A stretch of DNA of 64,000 nucleotides. It comes from Candidatus Undinarchaeales archaeon. Lineage in GTDB: Archaea; SpSt-1190; JASMDC01. Positions 12,002 through 55,584 of the stretch are shown piece after piece (the first letter of the stretch is position 1; the number at the start of each line of letters is the position of its first letter). The position numbers and the translations under genes are program-made. The stretch is taken from NCBI GenBank assembly GCA_030753015.1, contig JASMDC010000014.1, positions 1-64,000 of the forward strand, given 5' to 3'. The notes beneath the pieces are model-generated. The model did no database searches, had not been told where the DNA came from, and saw nothing but the letters and a program-made list of their open reading frames with translations.

Positions 12002-12058
12002 GGGATTCGCCCCGGTGTCAACATTTAAATAGGTATTCGCGGCCCGTGGCCGGTCCGT

Positions 12059-13885: not shown

Positions 13886-13937
13886 GGGTCGGCGTGTAGC
13901 CAATAGACTTATATGCGTTCGGTAGGGCGAAACGCCC

Positions 13938-14615: not shown

Positions 14616-14648
14616 ACTGGATCCACGCCGACGCCAGGAATGGCCCGC

Positions 14649-15956
14649 TCACTCGCTGTCCTCTTCCTTGTCGGAGAACCAGTGGCCCATGTAGGCGCGG
14701 CCCACGGCGTACGCTGCCTTGCAAGAGTCGACGAATCCGACCGCCTTTGCCCCGCCCCAGGCCATGCGGACCTTATCGCGCAAGGGGAGCTTGTCAGTGG
14801 CATCGAAGAAGGACTCCATGTCCTCGAGACGGAGGGAATCGTCCAGGGCACGCACCTGGATCTGGGAGAATGCTTCAGAGCTGCCGTACTTGACAAGGGG
14901 CTCGGCCAAGTCCATCATCTCCTCCACGGGCATCTCGATACCCTGCTTGATGAGGATGGGCATCAGTGTGTCCGAGAGAGGGTTCTTTTCCCGATAGGAT
15001 ATGGAATTAAGAGAGATTGCGTCGAGTTCGTCCTGTTCTAGAAGGTAGCCCACCTGTTCGGCCACACGCTCATGGCCCTTGAAGATAGAGTTGAAGCCAA
15101 GGGTGCAGAAGGGCGTCTGTCCACCGGCGTCACCCACCAGGAGCACACGGTCAGCGGCCTTCCTGTCCATCTGTCTCATGGGGATCACGCCATAGCACTC
15201 CTTGACGAGGTGGGAGCCAGCTACTTCAGGGTCCTTTGAGGCGAAATCCTCGTAGGCGTCCCTGAGCCCCTGGATCCATTCATCCTCGCTCTTCGCCGCG
15301 TACTCGTCAGGCTTGATCGTCTGGAACACCCAGGAAACACCCCGCTCCTCGGAGAGAGGGAAGTACTCCCCGAACACGTCGGTGTCGGCGTCACGGACGA
15401 CGACCAGGCCCGAAGTCGGGTCAGGGAACGATGCTCCCTCCACGTAGCCCCCGTAGGTGGGCACGTAGTAGTCCGGCTCCTTGTTCAGTCCGAGCTTCTT
15501 GGCTATAGGTGAGTTGTATCCGGTGGCATCGATGACGAGCCTGGCCCTGAGAGGGCCCGCATCAGTGTCGATCTCGACACCTTTGTCGGTGTAGGAGAGG
15601 TCACGGTAGGAGGTCTTTTCAAGGAGGTTGCATCCGTACGACTCCGCCTGGTCACGCCACTTTGCCATGACCTTCCCCTCGTCGACCAGTGCGCAGCCGT
15701 CACCCGCTGGCATGGGCTCTTCGATGTCGAGCGTCCTTTCGCCGGAGCGTAGACGGATACCGCCACGATACAAACGGTTGATGACCAGGTCGTCGTCAAC
15801 TCGGTACCCATCGGTCTCGAGTACGCCCCAGGCCTTGTCGGTATGGCCGATCTCTCCCCGCTCTATGAGGGCGACGTTGTAGTCCTGAGAGAGGTCCGCT
15901 GCAAGCGAGAGACCAGCCGGGCCTCCCCCGACAATGGCAACATCATACTCGTCCAC
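14649..15956 (-). CDS. Geranylgeranyl reductase family FAD-dependent oxidoreductase
   Basis: DVAIVGGGPAGLSLAADLSQDYNVALIERGEIG; VVIDATGYNSPIAKKLG; VLLVGDAGGQTPFCTLGF. Confidence 0.85.
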   Translation of the reverse strand: MDEYDVAIVGGGPAGLSLAADLSQDYNVALIERGEIGHTDKAWGVLETDGYRVDDDLVINRLYRGGIRLRSGERTLDIEEPMPAGDGCALVDEGKVMAKWRDQAESYGCNLLEKTSYRDLSYTDKGVEIDTDAGPLRARLVIDATGYNSPIAKKLGLNKEPDYYVPTYGGYVEGASFPDPTSGLVVVRDADTDVFGEYFPLSEERGVSWVFQTIKPDEYAAKSEDEWIQGLRDAYEDFASKDPEVAGSHLVKECYGVIPMRQMDRKAADRVLLVGDAGGQTPFCTLGFNSIFKGHERVAEQVGYLLEQDELDAISLNSISYREKNPLSDTLMPILIKQGIEMPVEEMMDLAEPLVKYGSSEAFSQIQVRALDDSLRLEDMESFFDATDKLPLRDKVRMAWGGAKAVGFVDSCKAAYAVGRAYMGHWFSDKEEDSE

Positions 15957-16097
15957 TGTGTCGTCCCGCCGTAGTAACAGTTAATAAACCTGCCTTTGGG
16001 TGACAGTCGCAGTTTCTAGCAGATGGGCGTACGGGAAGCGATACTTAACGATAGGTTAACTAATTGTTAGCGCAGGTTTAACGCGTAATCCGGCCCT

Positions 16098-17150
16098 TCA
16101 GTACCCGATCCCCATGTCGTTCTCGTAGAGTTCGAGCACCTTTTCCTTGTCGAGCCAGGCCGAGCACATGACCGTGTCGGCCCCTCCATAGGGGATCCAG
16201 ATCTTGTCGCCCGCGTCCACGGCACCGCATGAGAACACCACGTTGGGGACACCGAGCGTCGGGTGACCCTCAGCCTCGTAGGGCATGTCCGGTGAGAGGA
16301 TAGGCTCGGTGTATCTCCACGTGCATTCGAGGGTGTCAGCGTCGAGCATGGCCACACCCAGACGGTAGTTCTTCTCCGGGTCCACACCATGGTAGATGAC
16401 GAGCCAACCGTGGCGAGTACGGATGGGAGGCGCGTTAGCACCGATCTTCTCGCCCTCCCACTCCTGAGTGCCCATCTCCATGACGATCCCTGCATCATCC
16501 CAGTGGACCAGGTCGTCCGAGTAGGCCACGTGCATGGAAAGGTCGGTGTTCGGTCGGTGCATCATGGCATACCGCCCGTTGACCTTCTCGGGGAAGAGGA
16601 AGGCGTCCTTGTTGCGCACGCCTTCGAAGCCCTCGATATCCACAGGCCCCTTCTTGTCGAAGGTGTGGAAGTCCTTGGTCGTGGCCAGACAGATGTGATA
16701 GTGGAACCCGTCCTCCGGATCGTCCCTGTGCTTGAGACCCGTGTAGAGCACGGCGTACTCGTCGGACCCGGGTATCAGGGTCGCTCTCGGGTCCTCCACA
16801 CCGATGTAGTCGAAGTCGCTGTCGGGCAGCATCACAGGAGCCTCCGAGCGCTCGAGCACGGTGTGCCCGTCGGATGCCACAACGACACGCTCGAACCTCG
16901 AGCGGGAGTAATCGTTCCATCGGTCGAGATGTTCGGGTTCGGGGACATGGTCATTAAGGTCGGCATCTCCATCGAAGAGCTTGCCCGGTGCGCCCTGGTC
17001 GCGCACGAGCAGGAGATACCCATCGTCCCACTTGACCGCCGCAGCGTTGAAAACAACACCGGAGCGGAAGGGATCGTCCTCCACAGGCTCCAAGAACGGA
17101 TTATGTTCATCCCTCTCTAAGAGGGAGTCCTCGACCGATACCATGTACAC
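16098..17150 (-). CDS. GH130-family beta-mannoside phosphorylase/hydrolase
   Basis: GVEDPRATLI, YAVLYTGLKHRD, GWLVIYHGVD, IPYGGADTVMCSA. Confidence 0.88.
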   Translation of the reverse strand: MYMVSVEDSLLERDEHNPFLEPVEDDPFRSGVVFNAAAVKWDDGYLLLVRDQGAPGKLFDGDADLNDHVPEPEHLDRWNDYSRSRFERVVVASDGHTVLERSEAPVMLPDSDFDYIGVEDPRATLIPGSDEYAVLYTGLKHRDDPEDGFHYHICLATTKDFHTFDKKGPVDIEGFEGVRNKDAFLFPEKVNGRYAMMHRPNTDLSMHVAYSDDLVHWDDAGIVMEMGTQEWEGEKIGANAPPIRTRHGWLVIYHGVDPEKNYRLGVAMLDADTLECTWRYTEPILSPDMPYEAEGHPTLGVPNVVFSCGAVDAGDKIWIPYGGADTVMCSAWLDKEKVLELYENDMGIGY

Positions 17151-17381
17151 CCCTGTGATTCCCGGCAGGGAAGCCTGCTTATATACATTTGCTCGTATGA
17201 TAACGGATACACTTCATCGACCGACATCGTTCCGAGCGAAGAACTCGATTATCAATGAAGGAAAGTACCACTTCCCCCCTCCCAATACCACCCTGCCGGT
17301 TAACCAGAAAGCTTTTAAGGGACCTGTCTTGCCGTTTTTCACTGAGACATCGAGCCGCGGTTCGATATTAGGGGACTGTAC

Positions 17382-19622
17382 ATGGAAGTCGAACGGGACA
17401 TCGTCGAAGAGACATCCCTTGAAGGGGAGTGGGCCTATCGCACTGACCGCTTCCATCTCGGCGGGTTGCGTGGGTATGCCCGCGAGGGATTCAATGACGA
17501 TGGCTGGGACACCATGAAGATCCCCTCGAACTGGTACCGAGAAGGGCTGGACCACTCCGGGACCGTTTGGTTCCGTCACGGTTTCGACATGCCCGAACGT
17601 GAGGACGGTGCCCGCTATCATCTCGTGTTCAAAAGCGTCGACTACAAGGCCGATGTGACCCTCAACGGCGAGAAACTCGGTTCCCACGAGGGCTACTTCG
17701 ACGAGTTCTCCTATGACGTCACCGACGTGATTAAGGACGAGAACTCTCTGGCCGTGCGCGTGGACTCACCAAAAGAGCCGTTCTTCTCCTACATAACCGG
17801 CAAGAAGTACATCAAGGGCGTGCTGGACCAGTGGGACTGCCGGCCCGGCGGGCTCGATCCCTTCAGGGGTCGGGACGCCAACACCGGCGGCATCTGGCGC
17901 GACGTGACCATCAAGCGTACGGGCGACTATGTCCTCGGCGACGTCAAGCTCACCCCGACGATCCGGGAAAGTGGCGCCGACATGTCGGTCACGGTCCCCA
18001 TCAAGGCCTACCGGGACGGGGAGACGACCGTCCGTGTACGCCTCACCCCCAAGAACTTCGAGGGCGAATCGTACGAGATCGAACAGACCGTCGATGTCAA
18101 GGAGGGCGAGAACGAGGCCAGGTTCGACATGTCCATGAACGGGGCCAAGAAATGGTGGACCTGGGACATGGGCGACCCAAACCTCTACAACTATGAGGTG
18201 GCCGTCGTCGACGGCGGGCGAGTATCCGACCGTGATACGGGCAATATCGGCGTACGTGAGTTCGAACAGCGCGAGGACGGCGGATGGTACCTTAACGGTA
18301 AGCCCCTCTTCGTGCGCGGTACCAACTACATCTCGACACAATGGATGAGCGAGGGCCCGTCCTTCTACGATCGCGACTTCGAGCTCCTCAGGAAGGCCAA
18401 CATGAACGGCGTGCGTGTTCACGCCCACATCGAGGACGACTCGTTCTACGACCGATGCGACGAGAACGGCATCCTCGTGTGGCAGGACTTCATCCTCCAA
18501 TGGAACTATGACCCCAAGCTCCAGGACAGGGCCGTAGGTATGATGCGCAAGATGGTCAGGAATCTGTACAACCATCCGTCCGTGATGGTGTACGCCTGTC
18601 ACAACGAGCCCATCTCCGTCGACAACATCGGGGACATGCTCGGATTCGTCTGGGAATCTTTGGGTTTCGGCCGTAAGACCGACAGCCCCGAGGAGGAGCA
18701 GCATCGACGGAACACGCTCATGGGTGCCCTGGACGGACGACACTGGCTGGTTCAGAAGGGTGTCGAGGAGTTCGATGAGGCCCTTCGTTCGGCTGCTGTT
18801 GAAGAGGATCCCACGCGGCTCGTAAAGGTCTCGTCCCCAACGACCGAGCACAAGTACTTCGGCTGGTACACGGGCGACTATCACCAGTTCCGTGAGGACG
18901 CGGCCAATGCCGAGCCCATCATCAGCGAGTTCGGTGCCCAGGGTCTCCCGGACATGGAGACCATGCGCCGGATATTCTCAGAGAAGGAGATGGAGCCCAC
19001 CAACTGGAACTACGCCAGGTCTTGGATGCCCAAGGACTTCCAACCGCTCCAGACCCACATGATCGCCGGTATCGAAAAGGGTGAATCCATAGAGGAGTTC
19101 GTCGCTAACTCGCAGGATTACCAGGCGCGCGTGAACAAGTTCGCCATCGAGAACTATCGCCGCCACAAGCACGAGCCCGTGACCGCGCTCTTCCAGTTCA
19201 TGTTCGTTGACTGTTGGGAGGATGCCATCACCTGGTCGCTCGTCGACTACGACCGGCGCCCGAAGCAGGCGTTCGAAGCCGTGGCCACCGCCTACCAGCC
19301 CGTGCTCGTCTCTGCCGATCAGGAGCATGAAAAGGTCAGGCTCGGGGATCGCATCGAGGTGCCCCTCTGGGTGACGAACGACCTCTACAAGGCGTACAGC
19401 GGCGCGTCACTGCGCGCGACGCTCGTTGACGCAGAAGGGAACGTTGTCAAGGAGCAGGAGTCCGTCATCGATGTCGATGAGAGCTCATCCAATGCTTTCG
19501 GTTCCCTGAAGTGGACGCCCGAGGCCGCCGGGGACTACAAACTAAGGCTTGAACTCGAAAAAGAGGGCGAGGTCCTGTCCCGCAACGAGTACGACTACGC
19601 GGTCAAAGAGCCAACTGCTTAG
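17382..19622 (+). CDS. GH2-family glycoside hydrolase (beta-mannosidase/beta-galactosidase-like)
   Basis: Sandwich domain DVTLNGEKLGSHEGYFDEFSYDVTD; GTNYISTQWM; NGILVWQDFILQW; VYACHNEP; ISEFGAQGLPD. Confidence 0.9.
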   Translation: MEVERDIVEETSLEGEWAYRTDRFHLGGLRGYAREGFNDDGWDTMKIPSNWYREGLDHSGTVWFRHGFDMPEREDGARYHLVFKSVDYKADVTLNGEKLGSHEGYFDEFSYDVTDVIKDENSLAVRVDSPKEPFFSYITGKKYIKGVLDQWDCRPGGLDPFRGRDANTGGIWRDVTIKRTGDYVLGDVKLTPTIRESGADMSVTVPIKAYRDGETTVRVRLTPKNFEGESYEIEQTVDVKEGENEARFDMSMNGAKKWWTWDMGDPNLYNYEVAVVDGGRVSDRDTGNIGVREFEQREDGGWYLNGKPLFVRGTNYISTQWMSEGPSFYDRDFELLRKANMNGVRVHAHIEDDSFYDRCDENGILVWQDFILQWNYDPKLQDRAVGMMRKMVRNLYNHPSVMVYACHNEPISVDNIGDMLGFVWESLGFGRKTDSPEEEQHRRNTLMGALDGRHWLVQKGVEEFDEALRSAAVEEDPTRLVKVSSPTTEHKYFGWYTGDYHQFREDAANAEPIISEFGAQGLPDMETMRRIFSEKEMEPTNWNYARSWMPKDFQPLQTHMIAGIEKGESIEEFVANSQDYQARVNKFAIENYRRHKHEPVTALFQFMFVDCWEDAITWSLVDYDRRPKQAFEAVATAYQPVLVSADQEHEKVRLGDRIEVPLWVTNDLYKAYSGASLRATLVDAEGNVVKEQESVIDVDESSSNAFGSLKWTPEAAGDYKLRLELEKEGEVLSRNEYDYAVKEPTA

Positions 19623-19629
19623 GACGCTG

Positions 19630-20175
19630 TCACGTCCGTGACATGGCTTTCTTCTTGTTCAGTGCGGCGTCGAAGGTCGATGAAAGGAGGTCCTGGTTTA
19701 TGGCAGCACTACCGTCCGGCTTCAGCTCGATGAGCCCCATCTTGTAGAGCACGGCCACGACGTACCCGCACTTCTCCTGGTCCATGCCCAGCGCCTCGGA
19801 GAGCTCCACGAGCGTCGACCGACCGAAATGACCGAAATAGGCGAACACGATCTTCTGGATAGAAGGCTGTCGCTCCGGGTTCTTGACGGTCGACATGATA
19901 TGCTGGACCGCCCCCCGGATATCCTTGGAGTAGTTCTCCTTCCACTCTTCCGGGAAGAGCTCCTTGTACAGTTTCATCCCCTTGTCGGTGAGAGTATAGA
20001 AGTTATCATCCTTGATGACGACGCCCTCGTTCCGAAGGACGCTCAGCGCTCGAGAAACAGATGCATAGCCGCTCTCCCTGCGGTTCGGAGCGTACTCCTC
20101 GACTATGTCGCCGACGATCTTGCGGGATATTCCGAGGCTCCTGATGACGTGACGTTGAACCGTTCCAAGCCGCAT
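19630..20175 (-). CDS. wHTH transcriptional regulator
   Basis: SGYASVSRALSVLRNEGVVIKDDNFYTLTDKGMKLYKELF plus a second wHTH-like segment STLVELSEALGMDQEKCGYVVAVLYKMGLIELK. Confidence 0.7.
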   Translation of the reverse strand: MRLGTVQRHVIRSLGISRKIVGDIVEEYAPNRRESGYASVSRALSVLRNEGVVIKDDNFYTLTDKGMKLYKELFPEEWKENYSKDIRGAVQHIMSTVKNPERQPSIQKIVFAYFGHFGRSTLVELSEALGMDQEKCGYVVAVLYKMGLIELKPDGSAAINQDLLSSTFDAALNKKKAMSRT

Positions 20176-20354
20176 GGTACCACCTGTTAACAATGTGTTA
20201 TAGTGCCGTTACAGAAACGTTATGTTATTTGAATTTAAAGCTCAGACGACACCTTTTCCTTCACCCCCCAAGGTGAGGCGGCCACCCCCCAGGTACGCAC
20301 CTTGATGAGCGGGAACACAATCCGGTGAGACATCCCGGGACGGAGGTTGGGAAC

Positions 20355-20819
20355 ATGAAGACCGAGCAGTTATTAGAGTCCATCAAGAAAGCGTTCAGCG
20401 AAAGTGAATTCACCATGGCAGAGCTTCTAGATGCCATGTTCGACGAGTCAGACAAACCGCGTTCTAACACGAGCGAGTACCGTGCGATCATGCACGCGCT
20501 GCTCGCGATCGAGAAGTACGGTGGTATCAAGTCCCGCAAGATCGGGTCCATCAAGCACTATTCGCTCCCAGAGTACAAGCGGCCCAGCGAGCGCCCCAAG
20601 CGCAACCACGCTGATGAATACATGCGTATCCGCGAGATGGTCATCGAAGGCCTCCGGACAGGAAAGATCCCCATGTTCGGTGCCAATAAGGACGATCTCA
20701 GGGCGCTGCGCTACATCCAGGACAACATCGTCGAGCTAGTGCAGCGGGTGAACGCTCCGTACCAGCGTATCCAAGTCAGGCGGACGCCCCTGTACCTCGA
20801 GCTCAATCCCGTGATGTGA
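20355..20819 (+). CDS. Hypothetical, possible wHTH-like regulator
   Basis: MKTEQLLESIKKAFSESEFTMAELLDAMF...; 154 aa, divergent from the wHTH gene. Confidence 0.55.
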   Translation: MKTEQLLESIKKAFSESEFTMAELLDAMFDESDKPRSNTSEYRAIMHALLAIEKYGGIKSRKIGSIKHYSLPEYKRPSERPKRNHADEYMRIREMVIEGLRTGKIPMFGANKDDLRALRYIQDNIVELVQRVNAPYQRIQVRRTPLYLELNPVM

Positions 20820-20915
20820 AGGGGTACACCCCCTTCCTCGCGAGACCCCGTGAGAACCATTATAAACTAGCAGGCTTGCGACCGGTCCCTGTACTCGATA
20901 TACCGGTCGTAAGCC

Positions 20916-21701
20916 ATGGTCGATCCTTCGCTACTCCTCATTCGCGGCATCGCCGGCGCTGCCATGGTGCTCACCGTGACCGCGCTCGCCGAGCGTGCAG
21001 GCCCACGTGTGGCAGGGGTCCTCATGGCCTTCCCCACCATGACGGCCATCAACCTTCATTTCATCGGGCTCTCTCACGATGCGACCTTTGCTGCGGAGAG
21101 CGCGACATGGAACCCCGTCGGGCTCACGGCCGACGTGTTCTTCGTTCTAGCATACGTCGCTTGTTGCCGACTCGCAACGGGGAACTCACGAAGGACAGAA
21201 GTGGCGATCGCGCTCATCGGAGCGCTTGCCGTACTGGTCACCTCCGTGTGGACGCTCGAGGCGATCGCTCCTGCTGCATTCATGGGCCGGCTTGCCGTCC
21301 TCGCATTCGCCATCGGTGTCCTTGCATTTCTCACACGCGACATCCCCGATAAGTCCACGACCTTGGTAGGCAGGGGTGCACTCGTCCCTCGCGCGCTCTT
21401 CGCAGGACTCGTCGTGGCGGGTGTCACACTGGCGGCCGATATGCTGGGCCCTGCCTGGGGCGGGCTCCTCTCCGCGTTCCCCGGCACTATCCTTCCGGTG
21501 CTCGTCCTCCTCCATCTGGCCCATGGCCACGAGGTCACGGATTCCGTCGTGAAGCACTCCTGGTCAGGATTCTCATCCACAGGCGTGTACGCGTTCATGA
21601 TAGCGAACCTCTACCCGGTATGGGGCGTGTGGGCCGGGACGGCCACCTCTCTAGTAGGTGCCACCCTTGTAGCACTGGTCCTGAACCTCATCCGCAAGTG
21701 A
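20916..21701 (+). CDS. Multi-pass membrane protein with internal duplication (GlpM/DUF3147-like halves)
   Basis: Duplicated motif GPRVAGVLMAFPTMTAINLHF and GPAWGGLLSAFPGTILPVLVLLH. Confidence 0.65.
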   Translation: MVDPSLLLIRGIAGAAMVLTVTALAERAGPRVAGVLMAFPTMTAINLHFIGLSHDATFAAESATWNPVGLTADVFFVLAYVACCRLATGNSRRTEVAIALIGALAVLVTSVWTLEAIAPAAFMGRLAVLAFAIGVLAFLTRDIPDKSTTLVGRGALVPRALFAGLVVAGVTLAADMLGPAWGGLLSAFPGTILPVLVLLHLAHGHEVTDSVVKHSWSGFSSTGVYAFMIANLYPVWGVWAGTATSLVGATLVALVLNLIRK

Positions 21702-21718
21702 GGTATTTTTAAACCATA

Positions 21719-22723
21719 ATGGTCCTTTCAGAGGGCACCGTGGCAGGGGAGAAGAAGGATTCGACGGACGAGGAAATCGAACTGAAGTCCAAGGATTCCA
21801 AGAAGGAACCAGGGGACAAGGAGTCGACCTCTAAGACTGAGGATTCGTCCAAGAAGACCGATAAAGAGGAAAAGGAGGCCACTCCTGAGGAAGAGGAGAA
21901 GGGCCAGGAAGAAGAAGAGGTGCCAAAGAAGAAGAAGGCTCGGAAGAAGAAGAAGGCTCCGAAGAAGGAGAAGGAACCCGTCGAAGCCCCGCCTAAGAAA
22001 GAAGAGGAAGAGGCCGTCGTCGAGTTGCCGATCGGGCGCATCATCTTCTACATAATCATCACGGTCCTTGCTGTATCCCTCATCCTCAAGGCATCCCCCC
22101 AGCTACGAACGGTCAGGTGCGACTATCTGGCTGACGACCCGGAGATGTGTTTACTCGATTCAGCTCTCGTGCTCGAGGACATCTCGCTCTGCAAGTCGAT
22201 CACGGACAAGGACGTGATCAATCAGTGCTACCGTACGCTTTCCTTCATCAAACAGGACATCGAGCCATGCAAACTGCTCGAAGAGACATCGGAACGGGAT
22301 GCATGTGTCGCGAACGTGGCACTGACGCTAAAGGACGTGAGCTTGTGCGCCGAGTCGGTCAACGTATCAGAGCAGGACCGCTGTACGACCAACGTCGCCA
22401 TGGAGAAGAAGGACCCGACACTCTGTTCAGGTGTGAAGGACCTGGGGCTCAGGACCACGTGCGAGGCAACTGTCTCTCAGAACCTGGACCTCTGTGAGCT
22501 CATCATAACAGGCCAGCGCGACTTCTGCATGCGCCACATAGCAACACGGACGGTCCAGCCAAAGCTGTGCCAGCGCATCAACGATAACTGGTACCGTGAC
22601 ATGTGCTATGGGTTCCTTGCCGTCGAGATGGCTGATCGCACCGTATGTGAGAGCATCATCTCCGCCTCGTACAAGGAGCGCTGCCTGGCGGCGTTCAACC
22701 AGGACGTGCTGACTCCGCCCTGA
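21719..22723 (+). CDS. Membrane-anchored Cys-pair repeat protein with K/E-rich N-terminus
   Basis: K/E-rich segment, TM IGRIIFYIIITVLAVSLIL, then about 7 repeats of C..I......DxC....A....D..LC. Confidence 0.8.
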   Translation: MVLSEGTVAGEKKDSTDEEIELKSKDSKKEPGDKESTSKTEDSSKKTDKEEKEATPEEEEKGQEEEEVPKKKKARKKKKAPKKEKEPVEAPPKKEEEEAVVELPIGRIIFYIIITVLAVSLILKASPQLRTVRCDYLADDPEMCLLDSALVLEDISLCKSITDKDVINQCYRTLSFIKQDIEPCKLLEETSERDACVANVALTLKDVSLCAESVNVSEQDRCTTNVAMEKKDPTLCSGVKDLGLRTTCEATVSQNLDLCELIITGQRDFCMRHIATRTVQPKLCQRINDNWYRDMCYGFLAVEMADRTVCESIISASYKERCLAAFNQDVLTPP

Positions 22724-45596: not shown

Positions 45597-46595
45597 CTAC
45601 AGCTCGGAGTACTCCTCTTGACGACGGCGGATGATGATGTAGCGCATATAGAGCAACACCACGACGCCCGTGATGAGGATTATCGAGATGAGCAGGACCT
45701 GGACGAGGTTCTCGAAGTCAAGCTTCGCGATGTTATACTCCACGTGAGCGTCCCAGTAGATGTATATCATCTCCTGGGCCGAGTCGTGCTGTCCGATGAC
45801 CGAATAGGAGCGACGCGCGCTCTCAAGGGCGCTCTTCCCCTGGGCGTAGCGGATCATCTTGAGATACGACACTGAACCCGCGTAGTCCTGGATAATCTGC
45901 TTCCCTTCAGCGCTCTTCTCCAGGGCATTGGTCGTATGGGCCGTACAATCCTCTACGGCCTCTTTGTGGCGGGTGGCATACTCCTCTGCTCTGGCCGATT
46001 TGCACGTGCGTGCCCATGAAGAGACCCGATCGAGCACTTCGGCCTGACGACACACGTTCGGCTCACCTTCCACGATGGCGTCGAACACGGAGAGCGCGAC
46101 GAAGCAGATGTCCTCGTAGGTATCGTCCACGTTCGTGAGGACCTCGGTGACCTCCTCATGCTCGAAAGAGGCCACGGTGAGGTTCTGCCGGTCCTCGGCG
46201 AGTGCCTCGATATTGTCGGTTATGGTACTGAAGCTCTCGATAGATTGGGCCTGCTCGTATGCCATGGATGATGCTGTGACCGCCCAGTACGTATCTCGTG
46301 TGTGATTGATGAAGTCATAGGTGGACGAGAGGAAGGTGGCCCCGAAGGTACCGTCCTTGCCGGAAGGGAGAGTCTGCGAATCGCAGAGGTAGGAGAGGTC
46401 CCGGGCGAAGTGGCACACCGATGAGGCCGTTGGGATGTCGGTTATGAACGTATCCCGGTGGCCACGCGAGATTATCTCCGAGTAGAGATCGATGAGCTGG
46501 CGACACGGTCGCGGCTCCGCCAATACCGGCATCAGCATAACGAGCAGTACTACTGTCGCAATGACCAGTAAGCGGGTCGTTCCATTCGACCTCAC
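45597..46595 (-). CDS. Secreted/membrane-anchored helical protein, signal peptide and C-terminal TM
   Basis: LLVIATVVLLVMLMPVLAEPRPC; C-terminal LVQVLLISIILITGVVVLLYMRYIIIRRRQEE; GTGA overlap with upstream CDS. Confidence 0.7.
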   Translation of the reverse strand: MRSNGTTRLLVIATVVLLVMLMPVLAEPRPCRQLIDLYSEIISRGHRDTFITDIPTASSVCHFARDLSYLCDSQTLPSGKDGTFGATFLSSTYDFINHTRDTYWAVTASSMAYEQAQSIESFSTITDNIEALAEDRQNLTVASFEHEEVTEVLTNVDDTYEDICFVALSVFDAIVEGEPNVCRQAEVLDRVSSWARTCKSARAEEYATRHKEAVEDCTAHTTNALEKSAEGKQIIQDYAGSVSYLKMIRYAQGKSALESARRSYSVIGQHDSAQEMIYIYWDAHVEYNIAKLDFENLVQVLLISIILITGVVVLLYMRYIIIRRRQEEYSEL

Positions 46596-49471
46596 AGCTC
46601 AAGCACCTTCTGCGTCTTGATCCGATAACGCACGTACATACCTGTGATGATGACGGTGACCATGAACGCGAATGCCACGACGACATTGACCAGTGTCGAC
46701 CAGAGCATGGCCAGGTCCTCGCGTTCGCTCTCGATGATGATGAGCTCGTTCCGCACACGTTCCGCGTCCTCCGTGAGATTCAGGTACTCACTTCCTAAGT
46801 CCCCTACAATCTCCCTGTACTCTTTGATGACCCTGTCGTACTTCTCCAGCGCGCGAGGGGGGAGGATACGGTCGCCCAATGCCTCCTGTCTGAGACCTTG
46901 GACATTCTCATACTTCGTCGAGACCTCGTCGAGCTTGTCGATGATATTACAGCGCAGGTTCACCCGGCTGAAGAACACGTTGGCCATGGCACCGTTGTGG
47001 CGCAGACGCTCAGAACGTGTCGTGGGTTTCAGGCAGTAGTACCTTCCGACATCCTCGAACGTTTTCAGGAGGGTGGCATTGGCCTTCTCGCAGATCGGCC
47101 GCGCCTCCTCGATATCGATGCACAACACTTCGAGGTTGCGCTCGGTCGAACGCAAGATGGAGAGAGCGCGGACCGACGTGAGATTATGGCTCCGCTTCAT
47201 TTCGTTGAGGGTTAGGACGTTCGTCGAGAACACCGAGAAGGAAGATACGAGGGAGGCGGCTTTCGCCGACATGACCGGATCTTTCTTCGACCAGTCATCG
47301 CAGTGGACCAGGAAATCGCGCAGAGCCTTCTTCTCCTCTGGGAACCGTTTATCGATGAGCTTGATGTCGTCCCGGGCCTTCCGACAGCTCGGTGGGATGA
47401 TCTCGAACTCCATGGGTCTCTCATCGGCGGCCCGGTCATCGTTCAGGGCATCGATGACAAGGCCGATCGTGTAGTCCCCTCTCGGATCGGAGAAGTCGAA
47501 CCCAAGGCCTATTGGCAGCGTAAGGCGGCCCCCCTTGTCGATCTCGAACACGGGCGAGGGTACCTCTACTGCTTTGGCATGACGCACACACGCCTCCCCG
47601 GCCCCAACGGGGCAGGACCGGGCAACGACACTGAACGTTATGTTCCGGAGAGGGGTGAACCCGCCAACCTCTGCCAGGGTGAGGCTCGTGTTACCAGTGA
47701 TCGACGGCGGGCGTTCCTTGTAGAGCGTGAGCTTGTCCGGCATCTCGATCATGAGCTGTGGGTGGGGGATCGTGAAGGAGAATGGGACCGTCCGGTCACC
47801 ACGGTCAGGTATGGTAATGCGCAGCCCGCAGGTGTACTTATCTGGCGGGAGGTAATGGGGTACGTTCACCTCGAGGTCGAAGTCACCGGTCTCTTTTGCC
47901 GATACACCGATAGTCCCCTTAGCGACAGTGATGAATGTATTATTGAAATCACAGTCCACGATCTCGCCAGTAATCCCCTCAGCACAACCTCCATCGACCT
48001 CGATGATGGTTATGTTCTGTGACCGGAAATCCCCGCAAGGGAGCTCACGCATGTCCACATTCTCTGCCTTGAGGAGATAGTCAAAGCGTGGTACTTTGAG
48101 GAACAGGACTGTCTCTTTCTTTGCTTGTTCGGTCTTCGTGCGTGGATATGTCGCTGCTAGCCGGCCCGTGTACTCCCCCGCATTGATGTACTTGGGGACC
48201 ATGATATTCAGGGTACCGCTTATCCGGTCACCAGGGGAGAGGTTGTCGGTCTTTTCAGCTTCGAACTCGAATGTGAAGTCCTTGATATTGCCCGTTATGT
48301 CCAACTTGAGGTCACGAACGCAGCCGGAGGTGGATGGTACGTACAGCTCGATGGGCTGCTTGAGCTCCCCCTTGCAGGGTGCGTCGAGCCCGATCGACCG
48401 GGGGCTCAGACGGAGCTCTGGAGGTCGGACTGACACAGCTGCGGGGACCTGTAGCATTTCATCCCCGAAGCGGAGGTTGATCTTGTAATCATCCTGCTTC
48501 TCATCCTCGTCCTCCAGGAGCGTGAGGTTGCCCAGAGTGAAGTCGACAGTTACCTTACCGCACTTGGGGAGCGTGTAGCTCTTCGAAGTGAAGATGAACG
48601 GATGGTCGTCCATGTTCACGTCAACTTCGAGCGGCAGATCGAACACGCAGCAGCGGTCCTCGATGGTTATGGTCCGTTCCTCGTTACCACAAGCGTTCTC
48701 GAATGAGAATGTATCAGGGCTTACTCGTACGTCCAGCGCTGGCACGAACCGAATGTTCAGGTCCACGACGATCTCAAGGGCGTTCGAACCCTCGATCCGA
48801 AGGGGTGTCGAATAGGTCGTCCATGGTGTGAGCACCTGTACTGTCTTCATGTTGAGCGTGATGTATTGGACCTGTCCCGATCTGACCTCACTGAAGCTCA
48901 ACTGGTTCCCGAAGCGATCACCAAGGCTGATCTCCAGAGGACAATCCCCGTCCTCGTTACACATGTATGATGAGTCCAATTGTGCCACAACGTTGTACGC
49001 GTCGAGCTTACCCTGATTGGTCAGGGAAAGACTGTCCGTAACCTTGACGGCCCCGGAAGAGCGACATGGGATCTCGATGTCCTTTGCGTACTCTATCGGA
49101 ACGGTGCGGAGGTTGGCACGCGCTTTCGCTACGTTGAAGGAGACGTATGTGGACTTCGGGCTACCGGTCAGGTTGTAAGCCTCGATCTTTAGCTTGTAGC
49201 TGCCTGTGCTCAGCTTCCCGATCATTATCTCGTGGCTTGTGGACCAGGAAGCATCGGTCCCGAGGACACGACCCCGGTCGTCCTTGACCTGTGCCTGGGA
49301 GTTCTGATTGGTCGAGATCGTGATCGTGAGAAGGTCTGCATCGGTCGCATAATCATAGGGTTCCTTCGATGCGATGACCTGAGCGGAACTCGTGAACCTG
49401 AAGTCATCCGCCACGGCGGACAAGCAGAGGAGGATCGACAGAGCGAGTAGTATGCGCTGGTAGCGAGCCAT
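46592..49471 (-). CDS. Large extracytoplasmic Ig-like beta-repeat protein with Cys-containing repeats, helical stalk and C-terminal TM
   Basis: Signal peptide MARYQRILLALSILLCLSAVA; repeats opening IPCRSSG, FENACGNEE, DAPCKGEL, ELPCGDF; C-terminal WSTLVNVVVAFAFMVTVIITGMYVRYRIKTQ. Confidence 0.75.
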   Translation of the reverse strand: MARYQRILLALSILLCLSAVADDFRFTSSAQVIASKEPYDYATDADLLTITISTNQNSQAQVKDDRGRVLGTDASWSTSHEIMIGKLSTGSYKLKIEAYNLTGSPKSTYVSFNVAKARANLRTVPIEYAKDIEIPCRSSGAVKVTDSLSLTNQGKLDAYNVVAQLDSSYMCNEDGDCPLEISLGDRFGNQLSFSEVRSGQVQYITLNMKTVQVLTPWTTYSTPLRIEGSNALEIVVDLNIRFVPALDVRVSPDTFSFENACGNEERTITIEDRCCVFDLPLEVDVNMDDHPFIFTSKSYTLPKCGKVTVDFTLGNLTLLEDEDEKQDDYKINLRFGDEMLQVPAAVSVRPPELRLSPRSIGLDAPCKGELKQPIELYVPSTSGCVRDLKLDITGNIKDFTFEFEAEKTDNLSPGDRISGTLNIMVPKYINAGEYTGRLAATYPRTKTEQAKKETVLFLKVPRFDYLLKAENVDMRELPCGDFRSQNITIIEVDGGCAEGITGEIVDCDFNNTFITVAKGTIGVSAKETGDFDLEVNVPHYLPPDKYTCGLRITIPDRGDRTVPFSFTIPHPQLMIEMPDKLTLYKERPPSITGNTSLTLAEVGGFTPLRNITFSVVARSCPVGAGEACVRHAKAVEVPSPVFEIDKGGRLTLPIGLGFDFSDPRGDYTIGLVIDALNDDRAADERPMEFEIIPPSCRKARDDIKLIDKRFPEEKKALRDFLVHCDDWSKKDPVMSAKAASLVSSFSVFSTNVLTLNEMKRSHNLTSVRALSILRSTERNLEVLCIDIEEARPICEKANATLLKTFEDVGRYYCLKPTTRSERLRHNGAMANVFFSRVNLRCNIIDKLDEVSTKYENVQGLRQEALGDRILPPRALEKYDRVIKEYREIVGDLGSEYLNLTEDAERVRNELIIIESEREDLAMLWSTLVNVVVAFAFMVTVIITGMYVRYRIKTQKVLEL

Positions 49472-50398
49472 TCAACCACGCCCCAGGAGCAGGAGCACCG
49501 CACCAGCGATGGCCAGTATCACCGACACCCCCAAGGCACCTAGGGCCACCGACCGGGGCTGGACGATGTTAGTGGAGCTTGTGAACGTTTTCCAGAACTC
49601 CACTTGTGCACGATACTTCCGATCGTAGGCGATTATGATAACGATCACCAGGAAGCATCCAACGAGCGCTGCCGGGGCTATCCGCGTCGTTACGAGCCCG
49701 GGAATGCGTGTGCTCTCATCCTCCAACAACATCTTAGACTTCTTGAGTTCCTCCTTGAAGCTCTCAAGAGGGGCCTCGGGCCCGAGCCCGGTAACTCCCA
49801 TTTCCTTGATGTTCTTCTGTGATGCTTCTCCGGCCTCGACGACACGCGACTCGTACAATGAGGGGTAGTCAAGAAGGAACTTGCGCTCGGGTTCAGTCAA
49901 GGCTGCGAGCTCTTCCGACGTCGGGACCGTGCCAATGCGCAGGTCCGCTGTATACCGGGAGAGCCTTAGGGCACGACTGGCGGTCATTACCGATTCATGT
50001 ACGCATGAGGGCCGGTCACATATCGTTGCCCAGGATATCTCCATCCAATCGGTGATTAGCGTGTCGACACGGGCTCCTGACTCGGACACCGCACGCGTCA
50101 CCTCTGAAATGAAGCCCGACATGACATGCTTGAAGGATTCCGGTGTGCAACCAGTAACTCCGCTGAGCGCCTGTTCTCCAGTCTCGCATATGGAGAGGTT
50201 AGCAAGGACCGGATCATCAACATATCCTTCGATGAACTTCGCGTCCATTTTTCCACGGACAGGTCTGATGAGATCGATACAATCCTTGGGAGCACCTTTA
50301 TCCGGTTCGCAAGCAGGTGGTTCGCCCTCGAACACGAACTGTGTACATCCACTGATGAGTACGAATGAGAGCAGGAGAACTGCGTACTTACTCTTCAT
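49472..50398 (-). CDS. Lipoprotein-like protein with two C-terminal TM segments
   Basis: MKSKYAVLLLSFVLISGCTQ lipobox-like; APAALVGCFLVIVIIIAYDRKYR and GALGVSVILAIAGAVLLLLGRG. Confidence 0.65.
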   Translation of the reverse strand: MKSKYAVLLLSFVLISGCTQFVFEGEPPACEPDKGAPKDCIDLIRPVRGKMDAKFIEGYVDDPVLANLSICETGEQALSGVTGCTPESFKHVMSGFISEVTRAVSESGARVDTLITDWMEISWATICDRPSCVHESVMTASRALRLSRYTADLRIGTVPTSEELAALTEPERKFLLDYPSLYESRVVEAGEASQKNIKEMGVTGLGPEAPLESFKEELKKSKMLLEDESTRIPGLVTTRIAPAALVGCFLVIVIIIAYDRKYRAQVEFWKTFTSSTNIVQPRSVALGALGVSVILAIAGAVLLLLGRG

Positions 50399-52325
50399 CG
50401 TCCTCACCCTCCCAATAGTCATCATCGTCGGCCTCAGTATCATCAACCTCGGCCTTCGCCTGTACGGCCTCGCTCGCCCCCTTGTTCGGCTCCTTGCTTC
50501 TCTTTGGGACGGGAGCTCCCCTTACAATGGCGAGTCCAAGAAGAGCGCCAAGCAGACCACCGAGCCCGAAACCGAAGAGGATACCGGGAACGCCACCGAC
50601 CGCGGCGTTCGTCTTGGCGTTCTTCGCCCGCTCGATCTCGACGACGGCACGCTGTCCAAGGAGGTCCTCTCGTTCATGGAGCGACTCCACGGAAACCGCG
50701 GCCATAGCAAGACTATCGAGCGCTACCGTCTCGATGCTCAATGAAGAGGAACTGCTCCCGCACCGGCCATCAGTGCAAGTGACGTTGATGTAAACTACAC
50801 AGGCGCCTCCGGTGGAGGAGTAAACTACGGTCCCGTTGACGTCCGCGCGGGCGGGTACGGTCCATCCCTCGTTGGCCGCTGTAAGGCCTTCTATCTTAAG
50901 GCCCGTAGCACAGCCTGCATTATCCGTGACCTTGAGGAGGCGTTCAAGGTCGGCCGGCACCGTCCCAGAGAGCTTGATCGAGAAGGGGTACCGTGATGCC
51001 ATCCCGGTGAAGGTGCGCTGTGACGTGGTACCAATATCCAGGCTCTGGACAAGTGGAGCTCGAACGAGGAACTCGGCGCATCCCTCGCCGGAGAGCCCCT
51101 TGATAACGGCACAAATAGCATGGAGACCTGCAGCGTCCGGGACGAGACCGAGGTCTTTGAGTGCATATGGTTTCCCAGATACGACCTGGAACACCTTGGA
51201 GGATGAGGCAAGGGTCTCACTGCTGGTAACGGTGATATTCAGAGGGAGGACGATGTCAGGAACGCCGGTGACCGTGACGGACGTCTCGACCGTGTCCCCG
51301 GGGAACACCTCGAGGCGATCGTGTGAGAAATATATGTGGAATGCTCCCGAGCCCAGCTGTGTGATGGGAGCACGGACCAGTGTCTCCACGGTCTCGTTGC
51401 GCTCGAACGAGTAGGTGACGTGTAGCATATCGGTGCCATTGAACAGCGGGCGGAGCGTGAGAGCGACGGTCGTTCCCGCGACAGGCTTCATCACAAGGAG
51501 CTCGGTCCGCTCCCCGTCCTTCCAGCTTCCGAGCACCTCGAAGGCCTCTGTGTTCACGGAGACGGTGAGGATGCGATCGGTGCGCTGTTCATTAGTGAAG
51601 ACCACTGTGGCGTTGAAGGTCTCGTTCCCCTGGAGGACCGTTGCAGTGGTCGTGAGTTCGGCCGTCGGCAGCACGGCGGGCACATCGACCTCAGGGCCTG
51701 TGACTTTCCCCTTGACCATGGCTTCGATCACGCACGTATCCAAGGTCACATCGCCCTCTCCAGTGGCCGTGAGCGTGATGGTGGTGGACCCTCCGCCAAT
51801 GGCGCGGAAGGAAGCGAGCTTCACGATGCCCTGAATCATGCTGGTGACGTTCTGAGCGTACTCGAGAGTAAGCACCGAGTCATCGAAATCCGCGGATACG
51901 TTCGCATCGGTAGCAAAGGCCCATGCGCTCACATCAAGGTTATCGCCGAGGTCCAGTGTGACAGATGCATCGGGACAGAGCAGACCCACAGGTTCTCGAG
52001 GCTTGATCTCGACCGTGGCCCACGTCCGAACGGTACCGGATGTGCGGTTGACGAGGGTGAGGTTGAGCTGTGGATTCTCTACAACAAGGCCATATGGCGG
52101 TGCCGTCACATTGACGATCACCTCGAAATTGGACCCTGCAGGTGGGAATGACACGGTCGCGTAGGATGCGGCGGACGCGGGATCCACATCTACGACAATA
52201 CCTTCGGTCGCTGTGACAGGCGGAAATGTACAGCTCTCGGACGAGCCCTCCCGAAGTGGGCCTAGCGAATCGCACGTCTTGAGTGCGAACGCTGGCGATA
52301 TCATTAGTGTAAAGAGGAGCACCAA
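50388..52325 (-). CDS. Extracytoplasmic beta-rich protein with C-terminal TM and acidic cytoplasmic tail
   Basis: Hydrophobic leader VLLFTLMISPAFALKTC; GGVPGILFGFGLGGLLGALLGLAIV; tail VDDTEADDDDYWEGEDDEE; TTG start uncertain. Confidence 0.65.
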   Translation of the reverse strand: MVLLFTLMISPAFALKTCDSLGPLREGSSESCTFPPVTATEGIVVDVDPASAASYATVSFPPAGSNFEVIVNVTAPPYGLVVENPQLNLTLVNRTSGTVRTWATVEIKPREPVGLLCPDASVTLDLGDNLDVSAWAFATDANVSADFDDSVLTLEYAQNVTSMIQGIVKLASFRAIGGGSTTITLTATGEGDVTLDTCVIEAMVKGKVTGPEVDVPAVLPTAELTTTATVLQGNETFNATVVFTNEQRTDRILTVSVNTEAFEVLGSWKDGERTELLVMKPVAGTTVALTLRPLFNGTDMLHVTYSFERNETVETLVRAPITQLGSGAFHIYFSHDRLEVFPGDTVETSVTVTGVPDIVLPLNITVTSSETLASSSKVFQVVSGKPYALKDLGLVPDAAGLHAICAVIKGLSGEGCAEFLVRAPLVQSLDIGTTSQRTFTGMASRYPFSIKLSGTVPADLERLLKVTDNAGCATGLKIEGLTAANEGWTVPARADVNGTVVYSSTGGACVVYINVTCTDGRCGSSSSSLSIETVALDSLAMAAVSVESLHEREDLLGQRAVVEIERAKNAKTNAAVGGVPGILFGFGLGGLLGALLGLAIVRGAPVPKRSKEPNKGASEAVQAKAEVDDTEADDDDYWEGEDDEE

Positions 52326-52361: not shown

Positions 52362-53645
52362 CTACCCCCCTGAGAAGAACTCCATCTCAGTAACGTTATC
52401 AAAGAGCGCCTGTGCTTCATCCGGTGAAGTCTTGCTCGCTTCACGGAGGGTCTTGCGGGCCCAAGCGTTCCCCTTGACCTCGAGCTCCTTCAATCGCCCC
52501 ACGTCCTGCGGTCTGTAGGTGAAGGACGTTGTGACGGAGATCTCGGGATTGTCGGTCGGGACCACACCATGATGGAGCTCCTTACGAGTGAGGCGGCCCT
52601 CTTGGTCCTTGGTGATGGTCTCGAAGTATATCTTGTTCAGGTACTTCTTGTTCACCTTGAACACCATGGCGGCAGAGACAGGGAGCGTCTCTTCCAGCCC
52701 GGTCATGAGCTGTTTCGACCAGCACTTCATGGCCTCATCCGCGACCTGCTGAGTCTTGTCCTTTGATAAGAAGGGGAGCATCGTCTCCGAGAAGCTCAGG
52801 AACATCTGGCTACGTCCGATCGAGGCGATACCGGGCTTGCCCGGCATATAGGCAAGAGCTCGGATGTAGTCCGCAATGTCGAATGCGGGCAGGTTGAGCT
52901 TGCCCGTTGAGTCCTGGATGGACACGATGAGGTCGAGCACGAGGTTCTTAAGGGAGTCGACCACCATCTCGTTGAACACAGGTATCTTCTCGATGAAGGC
53001 GCCATGACCACGCTCGAGAACGACCTGGTTATCGACGACGATGAGCCCGTCGACGAGGTCGAGCATCTTGGTAATGTTCCACACGGCGTTCCAGGCACGC
53101 ATGTAGCCTTCGCTCTCCTCGGCAGGGAGCACTGCGACAGCGATGATGGGCGTGTTCGGGTAGATAAGCTTGAGGAACTCTGCGATCTTGGGTGCAGTAC
53201 CGGAACCCGTACCACCGCCAGCACCGAACGCCATGAGGATGACCGGAGGCCCGTTCTCACCCATCTTGAGGTGTAGGAAACGGCGGAACTCGGGCAGGAA
53301 CTCGTTCTGGTGTTCCTCGAGAAGGATGTGGCCCTTCCAAGGTGTAGCGCCCATCCCGCCCTTCACGCGACCTTCGAAGTCGGTCTGGTCGGTCTTTCCT
53401 AGGGCAGGAGCCACGCACGATCCGTCGATCCCGATACCCACGACGGGATCGAGCTTGAAGGCCTTGCGCAGGTTAGGGCAAGCGCGGTAGTAATCGGTGA
53501 ACCCTGATGTGATGCACACAGGAGTGATGAACACCGACGGGTCCTGTTTGAAGAAGTCAAGGAATGTCTTCTCACCCTTCAGGTTCATATACAGCTGGTC
53601 GAGTATCTTCATCCCGCACTGACCAAGTCCCACTGCACCGTACAT
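52362..53645 (-). CDS. Divergent tubulin/FtsZ-superfamily GTPase
   Basis: MYGAVGLGQCGMKILD N-terminal nucleotide loop and ILMAFGAGGGTGSGTAPKIAEFLK, matching the tubulin signature [SAG]GGTG[SA]G. Confidence 0.85.
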   Translation of the reverse strand: MYGAVGLGQCGMKILDQLYMNLKGEKTFLDFFKQDPSVFITPVCITSGFTDYYRACPNLRKAFKLDPVVGIGIDGSCVAPALGKTDQTDFEGRVKGGMGATPWKGHILLEEHQNEFLPEFRRFLHLKMGENGPPVILMAFGAGGGTGSGTAPKIAEFLKLIYPNTPIIAVAVLPAEESEGYMRAWNAVWNITKMLDLVDGLIVVDNQVVLERGHGAFIEKIPVFNEMVVDSLKNLVLDLIVSIQDSTGKLNLPAFDIADYIRALAYMPGKPGIASIGRSQMFLSFSETMLPFLSKDKTQQVADEAMKCWSKQLMTGLEETLPVSAAMVFKVNKKYLNKIYFETITKDQEGRLTRKELHHGVVPTDNPEISVTTSFTYRPQDVGRLKELEVKGNAWARKTLREASKTSPDEAQALFDNVTEMEFFSGG

Positions 53646-53670
53646 ATCTGATATATCGGGAGGGGATTAA

Positions 53671-53690
53671 TATTAAATAGGTATTCGTGC
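53671..53690 (-). promoter_or_regulatory. BRE/TATA-like element of the tubulin-like operon
   Basis: Minus strand GCACGAATACCTATTTAATA about 30 nt upstream of the start at 53645. Confidence 0.5.
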
Positions 53691-53721
53691 CATTCCGTGA
53701 CGGATCCGGGGGCCGTGACCT

Positions 53722-55584
53722 ATGACAGGAATGTACTATATCCGTCTTGCTACCATTGATGAGGTCTTTCAGGTCCACCCCTTCGATCCCAACGATCCGG
53801 GACAACCCCTGCTCGAGAACTTCACACGCATCGTCGGTAGCGTCTACCACCTCTCGCGTATCTACAGGCTCAAGTCCATCGGTCTATACGTCCATTATGT
53901 ATTGGAGCGGGCCAAGACCTGGGTCACCGAGGAGGAGGGCGACTACGTGCTCAACGTCGAGGTGCCCACTACCTGGACCTATCCCAGTACCGTGGAGCTG
54001 CTCTCCGAGATGGCTGCGAGCAAGTATCGCGATAACAGGATGAAGCTCACAAAGCGGGCAGAGATGGGTATCAATCCCTTCCTCAACCAGGCCGTTTCCA
54101 GCATACAACGTATGCAGGTCTCCGAGCTACAAGGGCTCGTTGATATCCCGGATAACGTAGCACGGGCCTATATCGCCAAGCTTCGGGGTGAGCAGCAGAC
54201 CCTCCTTCGTAATCTTGTTATCGGCAAGCTCCTCGCGGCGGGGAAGCTCTACGCTACAACCCAGCAGGCAGATGCCCAGCACACCGTCTGCGTCCGATGT
54301 GGGAACGTCCTTGACCTGCAGCGAAACCGCTGCCCGAAGTGTTTCTCCGCCCACCAGGGCGTGAAGTTCCAGGTCTATGTGACCGCATGGCAGGATGGCG
54401 AACCGGGAAAAGATTTCCTTGTGTTCCCGATCGAACCTCTGAAATCGATCCTCCCCAATCCCACATCCCCTCTTTTCGAGCAGACAATGCTCAAGGAGCT
54501 CGTGCTCCAGCATTTCAAGATTAGCGGGGACAGCGAGGGCTTCGTGCTCATGGACCTGGACCGCTCGCAGGAAGGGACATGGGAGCGCACTAATCTCCTA
54601 CTTCACGGTCGGAGGCTAGCGCTTGTGCCCTCTGATCGCGCCCCGGACATCGACGATTCCGAGATCTACGCCCAGCTCCGTTTCTCTGATGTGTGCGCCG
54701 ACTTCATCCAGCTACGGGTGACTCTCCCCGGGAACAGAGGGACCGTGGCCCACTCGGTAAGCCCGGAGACGCGCCTCGGGGACGTCGCCGATGCGGTGGT
54801 CAATAAAGCGGGGCTCAAGCTGGCGGACACCATCCTTGTTCGTGGGGGGCATCCCCTTGACCGGGAGGGGACCGTGGGCCAGGTAGGGCTCGTCAGCGGG
54901 GAAGAGGTCACCGTACAGGCCGTAGCACAGATGGCCGTGTTCATCCCAGAGATCGGGGGTACGAAACGATTCGGTGTCCCCGGGCGGATCACTGCTGCCC
55001 AGGCCATCGACCTCCTCAAGACACGATGCAATCTGACAGGTGATTACGTGCTCTCACAGGGTTCGGTATTCCTTAATCCAGATCACATTATCGATCCTGC
55101 TGCGCTCAGCAAGGGTGCGGGATTGCGTCTCAACCAACTCATCACCGTTGGTATCCAGCTCGCGGGGAACGTTCATACCATCAGTGTCTCGGCCGAGTCG
55201 ACGGTCGGCGACCTGCTCAGCAATCTCAAGGTGCGCGTCGGTGTGAACGGAGTGCTCGTTGCCCAGCTCAAGGGTGCGGTCGTCCCTAGCACCACACTAA
55301 TTGGTGAGCTCGATCTCAAGAAGGGACAGAACCTCGCGGCCGTGGAACGTCAGGTCAAGATGATCAACCTAACCATCTCACCGATCGAGGGAGGGAAGGA
55401 CACCAAGGTATCCATAGCTGAGGACCAGACAGTCTCCTCGCTCAAAGTCCAGCTCCGTACGATGCTCGGTCTCCCCGATAGCTCACGCATGGACCTCGTT
55501 TTCGGGGAGAAGGTGCTCAAGGACGATGCATCCCTGATGGAGTCCGGTGTCGGGGAAGGCGCGAACCTCTTCCTCATGGGATAA
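53722..55584 (+). CDS. Zinc-ribbon protein with about four C-terminal ubiquitin-like beta-grasp domains
   Basis: CVRCGNVLDLQRNRCPKC; C-terminal MINLTISPIEGGKDTKVSIAEDQTVSSLKVQLRTMLGLPDSSRMDLVFGEKVLKDDASLMESGVGEGANLFLMG and three preceding about 70-aa beta-grasp-like segments. Confidence 0.75.
   Translation: MTGMYYIRLATIDEVFQVHPFDPNDPGQPLLENFTRIVGSVYHLSRIYRLKSIGLYVHYVLERAKTWVTEEEGDYVLNVEVPTTWTYPSTVELLSEMAASKYRDNRMKLTKRAEMGINPFLNQAVSSIQRMQVSELQGLVDIPDNVARAYIAKLRGEQQTLLRNLVIGKLLAAGKLYATTQQADAQHTVCVRCGNVLDLQRNRCPKCFSAHQGVKFQVYVTAWQDGEPGKDFLVFPIEPLKSILPNPTSPLFEQTMLKELVLQHFKISGDSEGFVLMDLDRSQEGTWERTNLLLHGRRLALVPSDRAPDIDDSEIYAQLRFSDVCADFIQLRVTLPGNRGTVAHSVSPETRLGDVADAVVNKAGLKLADTILVRGGHPLDREGTVGQVGLVSGEEVTVQAVAQMAVFIPEIGGTKRFGVPGRITAAQAIDLLKTRCNLTGDYVLSQGSVFLNPDHIIDPAALSKGAGLRLNQLITVGIQLAGNVHTISVSAESTVGDLLSNLKVRVGVNGVLVAQLKGAVVPSTTLIGELDLKKGQNLAAVERQVKMINLTISPIEGGKDTKVSIAEDQTVSSLKVQLRTMLGLPDSSRMDLVFGEKVLKDDASLMESGVGEGANLFLMG

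Follow-up and report, generated by a model that had tools for sequence, protein, structure and literature searches.

Known prokaryotic tubulins act in cell division, cell shape or DNA movement. Patchily distributed 'non-canonical' proteins of the tubulin superfamily are mentioned by Brown and Duggin 2023 (PMC9856176). Santana-Molina et al. 2023 (PMC9871819) describe Halo.Tub, a haloarchaeal tubulin-like group with near-tandem copies in a context of unknown genes, many of them with coiled coils, and Makarova and Koonin 2010 (PMC2875224) defined FtsZl-1 and FtsZl-2. The protein of the present study, P0001, resembles FtsZl-1 in being a superfamily GTPase with a gene-context link to membrane proteins. 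However, P0001 retains T6-T7, which could not be identified in FtsZl-1, its 427 residues do not include the coiled-coil-plus-helical C-terminal extension, and its partners differ from the vWA/OmpA set described for FtsZl-1 in the available part of that work (PMC2875224). An identity with FtsZl-1 is not supported, given the retained T7 and the score of Pfam Tubulin_2 (14.7 bits, cut-off 27). P0001 belongs to a family that we call TubA. The haloarchaeal TubA genes are probably the published, uncharacterised Halo.Tub genes, which likewise stand outside FtsZ and occur in several near-tandem copies; in contrast, the exported-ectodomain cassette that haloarchaeal TubA shares with Hydrothermarchaeota is absent from the Halo.Tub description as far as the accessible text goes (PMC9871819). 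The TubA family has probably been recorded in the literature before, but this does not seem to hold for the shared membrane cassette: no description of a TubA/TubB/membrane cassette was found in the open-access literature, supplements aside, within the accessible parts of papers including PMC5898192 and PMC10067837.

The window, i.e. the whole stretch of 64,000 nucleotides that was analysed, lies on contig 23 of the archaeal bin G000 (3.85 Mb, 117 contigs, 98.9% complete, 5.0% contamination). The gene of interest is:

52362..53645, minus strand: TubA (P0001), divergent tubulin/FtsZ-superfamily GTPase, 427 aa

The open reading frame runs uninterrupted from 53645 to 52362 and is taken as coding because it matches Pfam Tubulin with 74.8 bits (cut-off 33; the sole Pfam domain above its cut-off), because the search of a single genome returned distant homologues (2.6e-26) that can be aligned with the greater part of the protein, and because of its position-specific GC content (0.58/0.38/0.76). 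Neither an FtsZ nor a tubulin C-terminal Pfam domain was matched at E<=0.1 and the tail is short, in agreement with the earlier note, which had seen no obvious FtsZ C-terminal tail. Tubulin_C (PF03953) has no match in P0001 or its bin and is matched in 2 of 394 genomes.

Relatives of P0001, searched for in overlapping sets of 61, 101 and 101 genomes, are 26-32% identical over most of the protein. A scan of genome contigs named 15 loci, of which 13 (L050-L062) have a clear TubA member; an Altiarchaeota locus (L063, 22%) and a Myxococcales locus (L064, 83 residues matched) were not counted. The hosts of the 13 loci are Hydrothermarchaeota, Candidatus Pyrohabitans and Candidatus Hydrothermarchaeum profundi among them, as well as several records that are labelled merely Euryarchaeota or archaeon. 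Haloarchaeal plasmids account for five further matches (in 72,556 records), four of which cover at least 80% of the query. Members of TubA were found in Hydrothermarchaeota, on plasmids of haloarchaea and in a small number of other archaea. The uncounted Altiarchaeota locus (DAOVSA010000031, 307-6820) carries two divergent tubulin-like genes of 419 and 378 aa. The product of the 378-aa gene branches outermost among the TubA relatives of the tree. A reading frame of 385 aa, which by eye resembles a tubulin, lies at the end of the contig, and all three fit into 6.5 kb.

A leave-one-out TubA HMM (18 proteins, without P0001) scores P0001 with 165.3 bits, compared to 42.2 bits for FtsZ, 17.3 for TubB, 25.4 for a tubulin type that we read as 'Odin', and 63.5 for CetZ, whose rows are six proteins labelled by similarity (as were the other groups) and not the whole family. 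One of these CetZ rows matches CetZ1 4b46 at 2e-106. When two rows that we read as 'Thermococcales-like' were added to the CetZ HMM, its score rose to 81.3 bits, the highest of any non-TubA group tested. The NCBIfam ftsZ model TIGR00065 reaches 41.4 bits at a cut-off of 295.2. The same picture was obtained from a careful tree of 55 rows, built after 11 of the 66 rows of a first, quick tree had been removed for long branches or redundancy (PhuZ, two Altiarchaeota, two TubC, L049a, one 249-aa protein, three TubA and one TubB). TubA forms a clade in this tree with support of 100/99 including L063 and 95/86 excluding it, and the CetZ (100/99) and FtsZ (100/100) clades both stand apart. AU tests reject a grouping of P0001 with CetZ (p 0.005) and with FtsZ (p = 7e-5). 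P0001 itself is a long branch (1.69) with a protein of genome G031 as its sister, and its position within TubA is supported only at 92/81. These results assign P0001 to a separate family of archaeal tubulin-like proteins, neither FtsZ nor CetZ. Scores, tree and AU tests bear out the reading of the earlier note that the gene encodes a superfamily GTPase diverging from canonical FtsZ; of the three options that it had left, a separate clade is retained, CetZ is rejected, and FtsZl-1/2 are not supported by the Tubulin_2 score.

A phage or viral origin was also considered and rejected, as none of 77 pattern matches in viral contigs encodes a relative. Phage sequences gave no match to P0001 at E<=0.01; in PHROGs, P0001 reaches 17.4 bits with a family of unknown function and one of its relatives 23.4 bits with PhuZ. 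In the quick tree PhuZ does not lie near P0001, but it sits there on a branch of 4.21. Assignment to a defence system was rejected as well: one of nine proteins, a haloarchaeal neighbour, has a PADLOC match (12.6 bits, E 0.006).

Inspection of the nucleotide-binding loops modifies the earlier description in two points. The loop motifs quoted there, GLGQCGMKILDQ and GAGGGTGSGTAPKIAE, are found in P0001. The glycine loop had been taken for a departure from FtsZ, but GGGTGSG is none because an FtsZ from a same-class genome (L018) reads GGGTGSGAAP. The 'long insertion' PVCITSG...ALG proved to be mostly the homologous S2-T2-S3 region that is common to other superfamily members and reads NTDxxDL in FtsZ and NSxxxDL in relatives; the extras of P0001 over its closest relatives are three, of 12, 5 and 5 residues. 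The T2 asparagine is kept by the relatives (INSATxD) but is missing from P0001 (ITSGFTD). Alignments of 13 and of 15 rows show no variation in the key T1 and T4 glycines, the T6 asparagine or the T7 pair D256/D259. This pair aligns with the D..D of FtsZ and the D..E of CetZ; in CetZ1, E218 is the known catalytic T7 residue. T7 acids act only at the subunit interface, and the retention of the GTPase loops together with the T7 acidic pair suggests that P0001 probably polymerises.

P0001 is predicted to have a complete tubulin/FtsZ fold. The AlphaFold (AF2) model, computed from the 15-row alignment A5, has a pLDDT of 70.7 and a pTM of 0.77, the C-terminal half being of low confidence. The structure prediction that the earlier note had proposed thus returned a full fold, for which Foldseek and VIA-align rank CetZ structures first (3zid with Z 30.7 and an rmsd of 3.9 over 321; 4b46 with Z 29.4 and an rmsd of 3.4 over 309), and tubulins near Z 28. 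Among PDB sequences, profile A1 likewise matches 4b46 best (2.3e-26). CetZ thus shares with P0001 the archaeal superfamily fold and the lack of a recognised C-terminal Pfam domain and provides the nearest solved structures, but it forms a separate clade, its row has D..E instead of D..D at T7 and its gene partners are different ones. FtsZ1 and FtsZ2 have the GTP-binding loops and the T7 D..D in common with P0001, which however stays under the cut-off of the FtsZ model, has no FtsZ_C match and is rejected from an FtsZ placement.

The conserved neighbourhood of TubA did not figure in the earlier reading of the locus. Downstream of TubA, the Hydrothermarchaeota encode a two-pass membrane protein, CCM, and a second tubulin-like protein, TubB; divergent to TubA lie E3 and E2, both exported and C-terminally anchored, and often E4 beyond them (signal peptides and transmembrane segments of cassette and window proteins were called by a simple hydropathy scan). 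By blastp clustering, CCM is present in 12, TubB in 11, E2 in 10 and E3 in 9 of the 13 loci. In one more locus, L056, a profile comparison recognises an E2-like protein (9e-13), and the E2/E3 side of L052 and L057 is not visible because TubA starts within about 400 bp of the contig end. Four of the five haloarchaeal records were fetched, and each contains a run with three tubulin-like genes. Profiles of the two groups match for TubA (3e-79), TubB (1e-70), CCM (6e-18), E2 (1e-23), E3 (3e-14) and E4 (6e-18), and judged from these similarities TubA, TubB, CCM and the exported proteins of the cassette are orthologous between Hydrothermarchaeota and haloarchaea. E2 has a NEW3 Ig-like domain barely above the cut-off (25.3 vs 24.4), and E4 an N-terminal PQQ_2 propeller (51, cut-off 27.6). 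Among 394 genomes, which are related so that the counts are not independent, TubA (E<=1e-40) occurs in 18, TubB (E<=1e-30) in 17 and both in 16; TubA is without TubB in G000 and G031, and TubB without TubA in G112. The lineage f81 departs from this arrangement. Its main TubA is without exported neighbours in three of three loci, TubB being on another contig, and a second cassette (L103, L104) combines a TubA-like protein with E3 (about 1e-20) in both loci fetched, E4 being recognised in one of them (1.5e-11).

One haloarchaeal example is the Halobacterium salinarum R1 plasmid PHS2, where positions 5118-22345 hold an eleven-gene run with the tubulin-like genes OE_RS12070, OE_RS12060 and OE_RS12040, the cassette extending from OE_RS12075 to OE_RS12025. 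The annotation of two of the three reads 'cell division protein FtsZ', that of the third hypothetical; by eye, OE_RS12070 has an N-terminal zinc-finger-like stretch.

In the window, TubA heads a tightly packed run of five genes on the same strand (TubA, w645, w324, w959 and w332) and faces a divergent gene, w620:

50388..52325, minus strand: w645, predicted exported, C-terminal TM 582-600, acidic cytosolic tail
49472..50446, minus strand: w324, predicted exported, lipobox-like Cys (by eye), two C-terminal TM segments
46592..49471, minus strand: w959, signal peptide, repeated Ig-like ectodomain, C-terminal TM 927-945, short basic tail
45597..46595, minus strand: w332, signal peptide, C-terminal TM 297-315, short basic tail
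53646..53721, no strand: divergent spacer, 76 bp, one AT-rich element (ATTAATATTAAATA)
53722..55584, plus strand: w620, 620-aa gene, zinc ribbon, ubiquitin-like beta-grasp repeats

The four genes downstream of TubA are all predicted to encode exported, membrane-anchored proteins. w645 begins 36 bp after TubA, its signal peptide being called by eye; the true start of w324 is probably a downstream ATG, and w959 and w332 overlap by 4 bp. The protein w959 resembles cassette protein E2, with 1.4e-6 for the E2 HMM and 90.4% and 1.4e-6 by hhalign over residues 373-656. Its E2 score of 18.6 bits compares to at most 2.0 bits in 2000 shuffles, and w959 is the sole clear E2 match among 100 reading frames of the regions of this genome (next 2.0 bits); shared Ig-like repeats could explain this similarity without orthology. 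The architecture of w332 matches that of E3, while a sequence similarity is undetectable. No family was found for w645 and w324, and none of w645, w324, w332 and w620 matches a cassette protein at an hhalign probability of at least 40. TubB was not found in the bin (best 40.7 bits, a CetZ-like protein on contig C75), and CCM has no match there at E<=1, an empty answer that alone shows little. With TubB and CCM not found and w959 alone being E2-like, the window carries a reduced cassette of TubA and a local set of surface proteins. On the other side of TubA, w620 combines a zinc ribbon with some four beta-grasp repeats of the ubiquitin-like type; Pfam ubiquitin and Rad60-SLD score the last repeat at 34-35 bits. 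Of the 247 archaeal genomes that were searched, the other 246 gave no homologue, and a single-sequence structure prediction was useless (pLDDT 31.9). The spacer element ATTAATATTAAATA, judged by eye, is a possible shared archaeal TATA region, and w620 perhaps belongs to the TubA system as a ubiquitin-like-repeat partner.

The bin encodes six Pfam Tubulin proteins, namely P0001, three canonical FtsZ (contigs C25, C65 and C49), all of which fall within the FtsZ clade, and two other divergent ones (C117 and C75) that pair together at 100/99. A search for separate ftsZ copies, as suggested before, thus yielded three on other contigs, although at 5% contamination not every contig of the bin need come from the same organism. 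Both observations that the earlier note had named as refuting its reading, a robust placement inside FtsZ1/FtsZ2 and the lack of another division FtsZ, were looked for and did not turn up. TubA (E<=1e-40) is present in none of nine same-class genomes. These nine measure 0.6-1.1 Mb, compared to 3.85 Mb for the bin, which points either to a remarkably large genome within a lineage of small ones or to a classification or binning problem. On contig C75 (2943-9826 and 9863-14032) a CetZ-like gene (422 aa) lies beside a 342-aa protein that by eye resembles a degenerate tubulin, both adjoined by two exported TM proteins; they are faced by genes that resemble, by eye, a secretion/pilus ATPase whose N-terminal region is ferredoxin-like and two membrane proteins of TadC type. 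On contig C117 (3818-11698) the neighbours of a divergent tubulin-like gene (382 aa) are, by eye, a prepilin-peptidase-like reading frame and two membrane proteins, one exported with a TM segment and one multi-TM.

From these data we infer polymerisation, coupling and function, and consider it rather probable that P0001 forms a membrane-linked tubulin filament that is coupled to surface proteins. TubA with GTP would form filaments on the inner face of the membrane, each subunit supplying the T7 acids that make up the GTPase site of the following one. The anchored proteins end in short cytosolic tails, which would tether the filament or be organised by it, and the Ig-like ectodomains would thereby be positioned or pulled at the cell surface, division being left to the separate FtsZ proteins. 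Since no motif shared by the cytosolic tails is visible by eye, it is topology and gene context that speak for such a tethering. TubB and CCM were not found, so the filament of the window would be a homopolymer or use the other divergent tubulin-like proteins of the bin. Their absence from the search results counts against this model, as do the three of four exported neighbours without similarity to the cassette, the main TubA of f81 without exported neighbours, the lack of a visible common motif in the tails, the reliance of signal peptides and TM segments on a simple hydropathy scan, and, for P0001, the long branch, the support of only 92/81 for its place within TubA and the missing T2 asparagine. 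A more far-reaching proposal, which we regard as possible but put forward with some doubt, is that of an undescribed archaeal trans-envelope cytoskeleton. TubA and TubB, possibly a heteropolymer with an origin independent of alpha/beta-tubulin, would here be coupled mechanically to ectodomains of Ig-like and beta-propeller type, via membrane proteins with two passes and with one; Hydrothermarchaeota, plasmids of haloarchaea and further lineages would have the system, with the window showing a reduced, TubB-less version, perhaps with a ubiquitin-like-repeat partner.

The main functional rival to a membrane-linked filament is a GTP-binding regulator that has lost polymerisation and serves, for example, as a switch for surface proteins. 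P0001 is far more divergent than other TubA proteins and is without the T2 asparagine, no TubB was found, and the C-terminal half of the model is of low confidence, all of which would suit a regulator. Nevertheless, T4, the T6 asparagine and both T7 acids are retained, and the latter matter only at a subunit interface, so we consider this alternative unlikely. Even less probable in our view is a fast-evolving member of the known CetZ family with a role in shape, motility or association with pili. In its favour, the predicted fold resembles CetZ structures most (3zid, Z 30.7; 4b46, Z 29.4), 4b46 tops the PDB sequence matches of profile A1 (2.3e-26), the two other divergent tubulin-like genes of the bin lie near pilus-type genes (by eye), and CetZ genes are reported near type IV pili in the accessible part of PMC9856176. 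Against this stand the separate TubA clade at 100/99, the AU test (p 0.005) and the lower CetZ score (63.5 vs 165.3 bits, from six CetZ rows labelled by similarity).

That P0001 is a paralogue of the division protein FtsZ appears highly improbable. Haloarchaeal relatives do carry the annotation 'cell division protein FtsZ' and TIGR00065 gives 41.4 bits, but the latter value is far from the cut-off of 295.2, the AU test argues against the placement (p 7e-5), the bin has three canonical FtsZ, TubA is found at E<=1e-40 in none of the nine same-class genomes, and the haloarchaeal members found sit on plasmids.

If TubA genes consistently accompany exported anchored proteins, the family would be a candidate tubulin with an action on the cell surface, in some degree comparable to the links between cytoskeleton and receptors in eukaryotes. 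The presence of TubB in the cassette raises the question whether paired, possibly heteropolymer-forming tubulins have arisen more than once. As one cassette is found on a plasmid of the laboratory archaeon Halobacterium salinarum R1, this question of pairing can be addressed directly.
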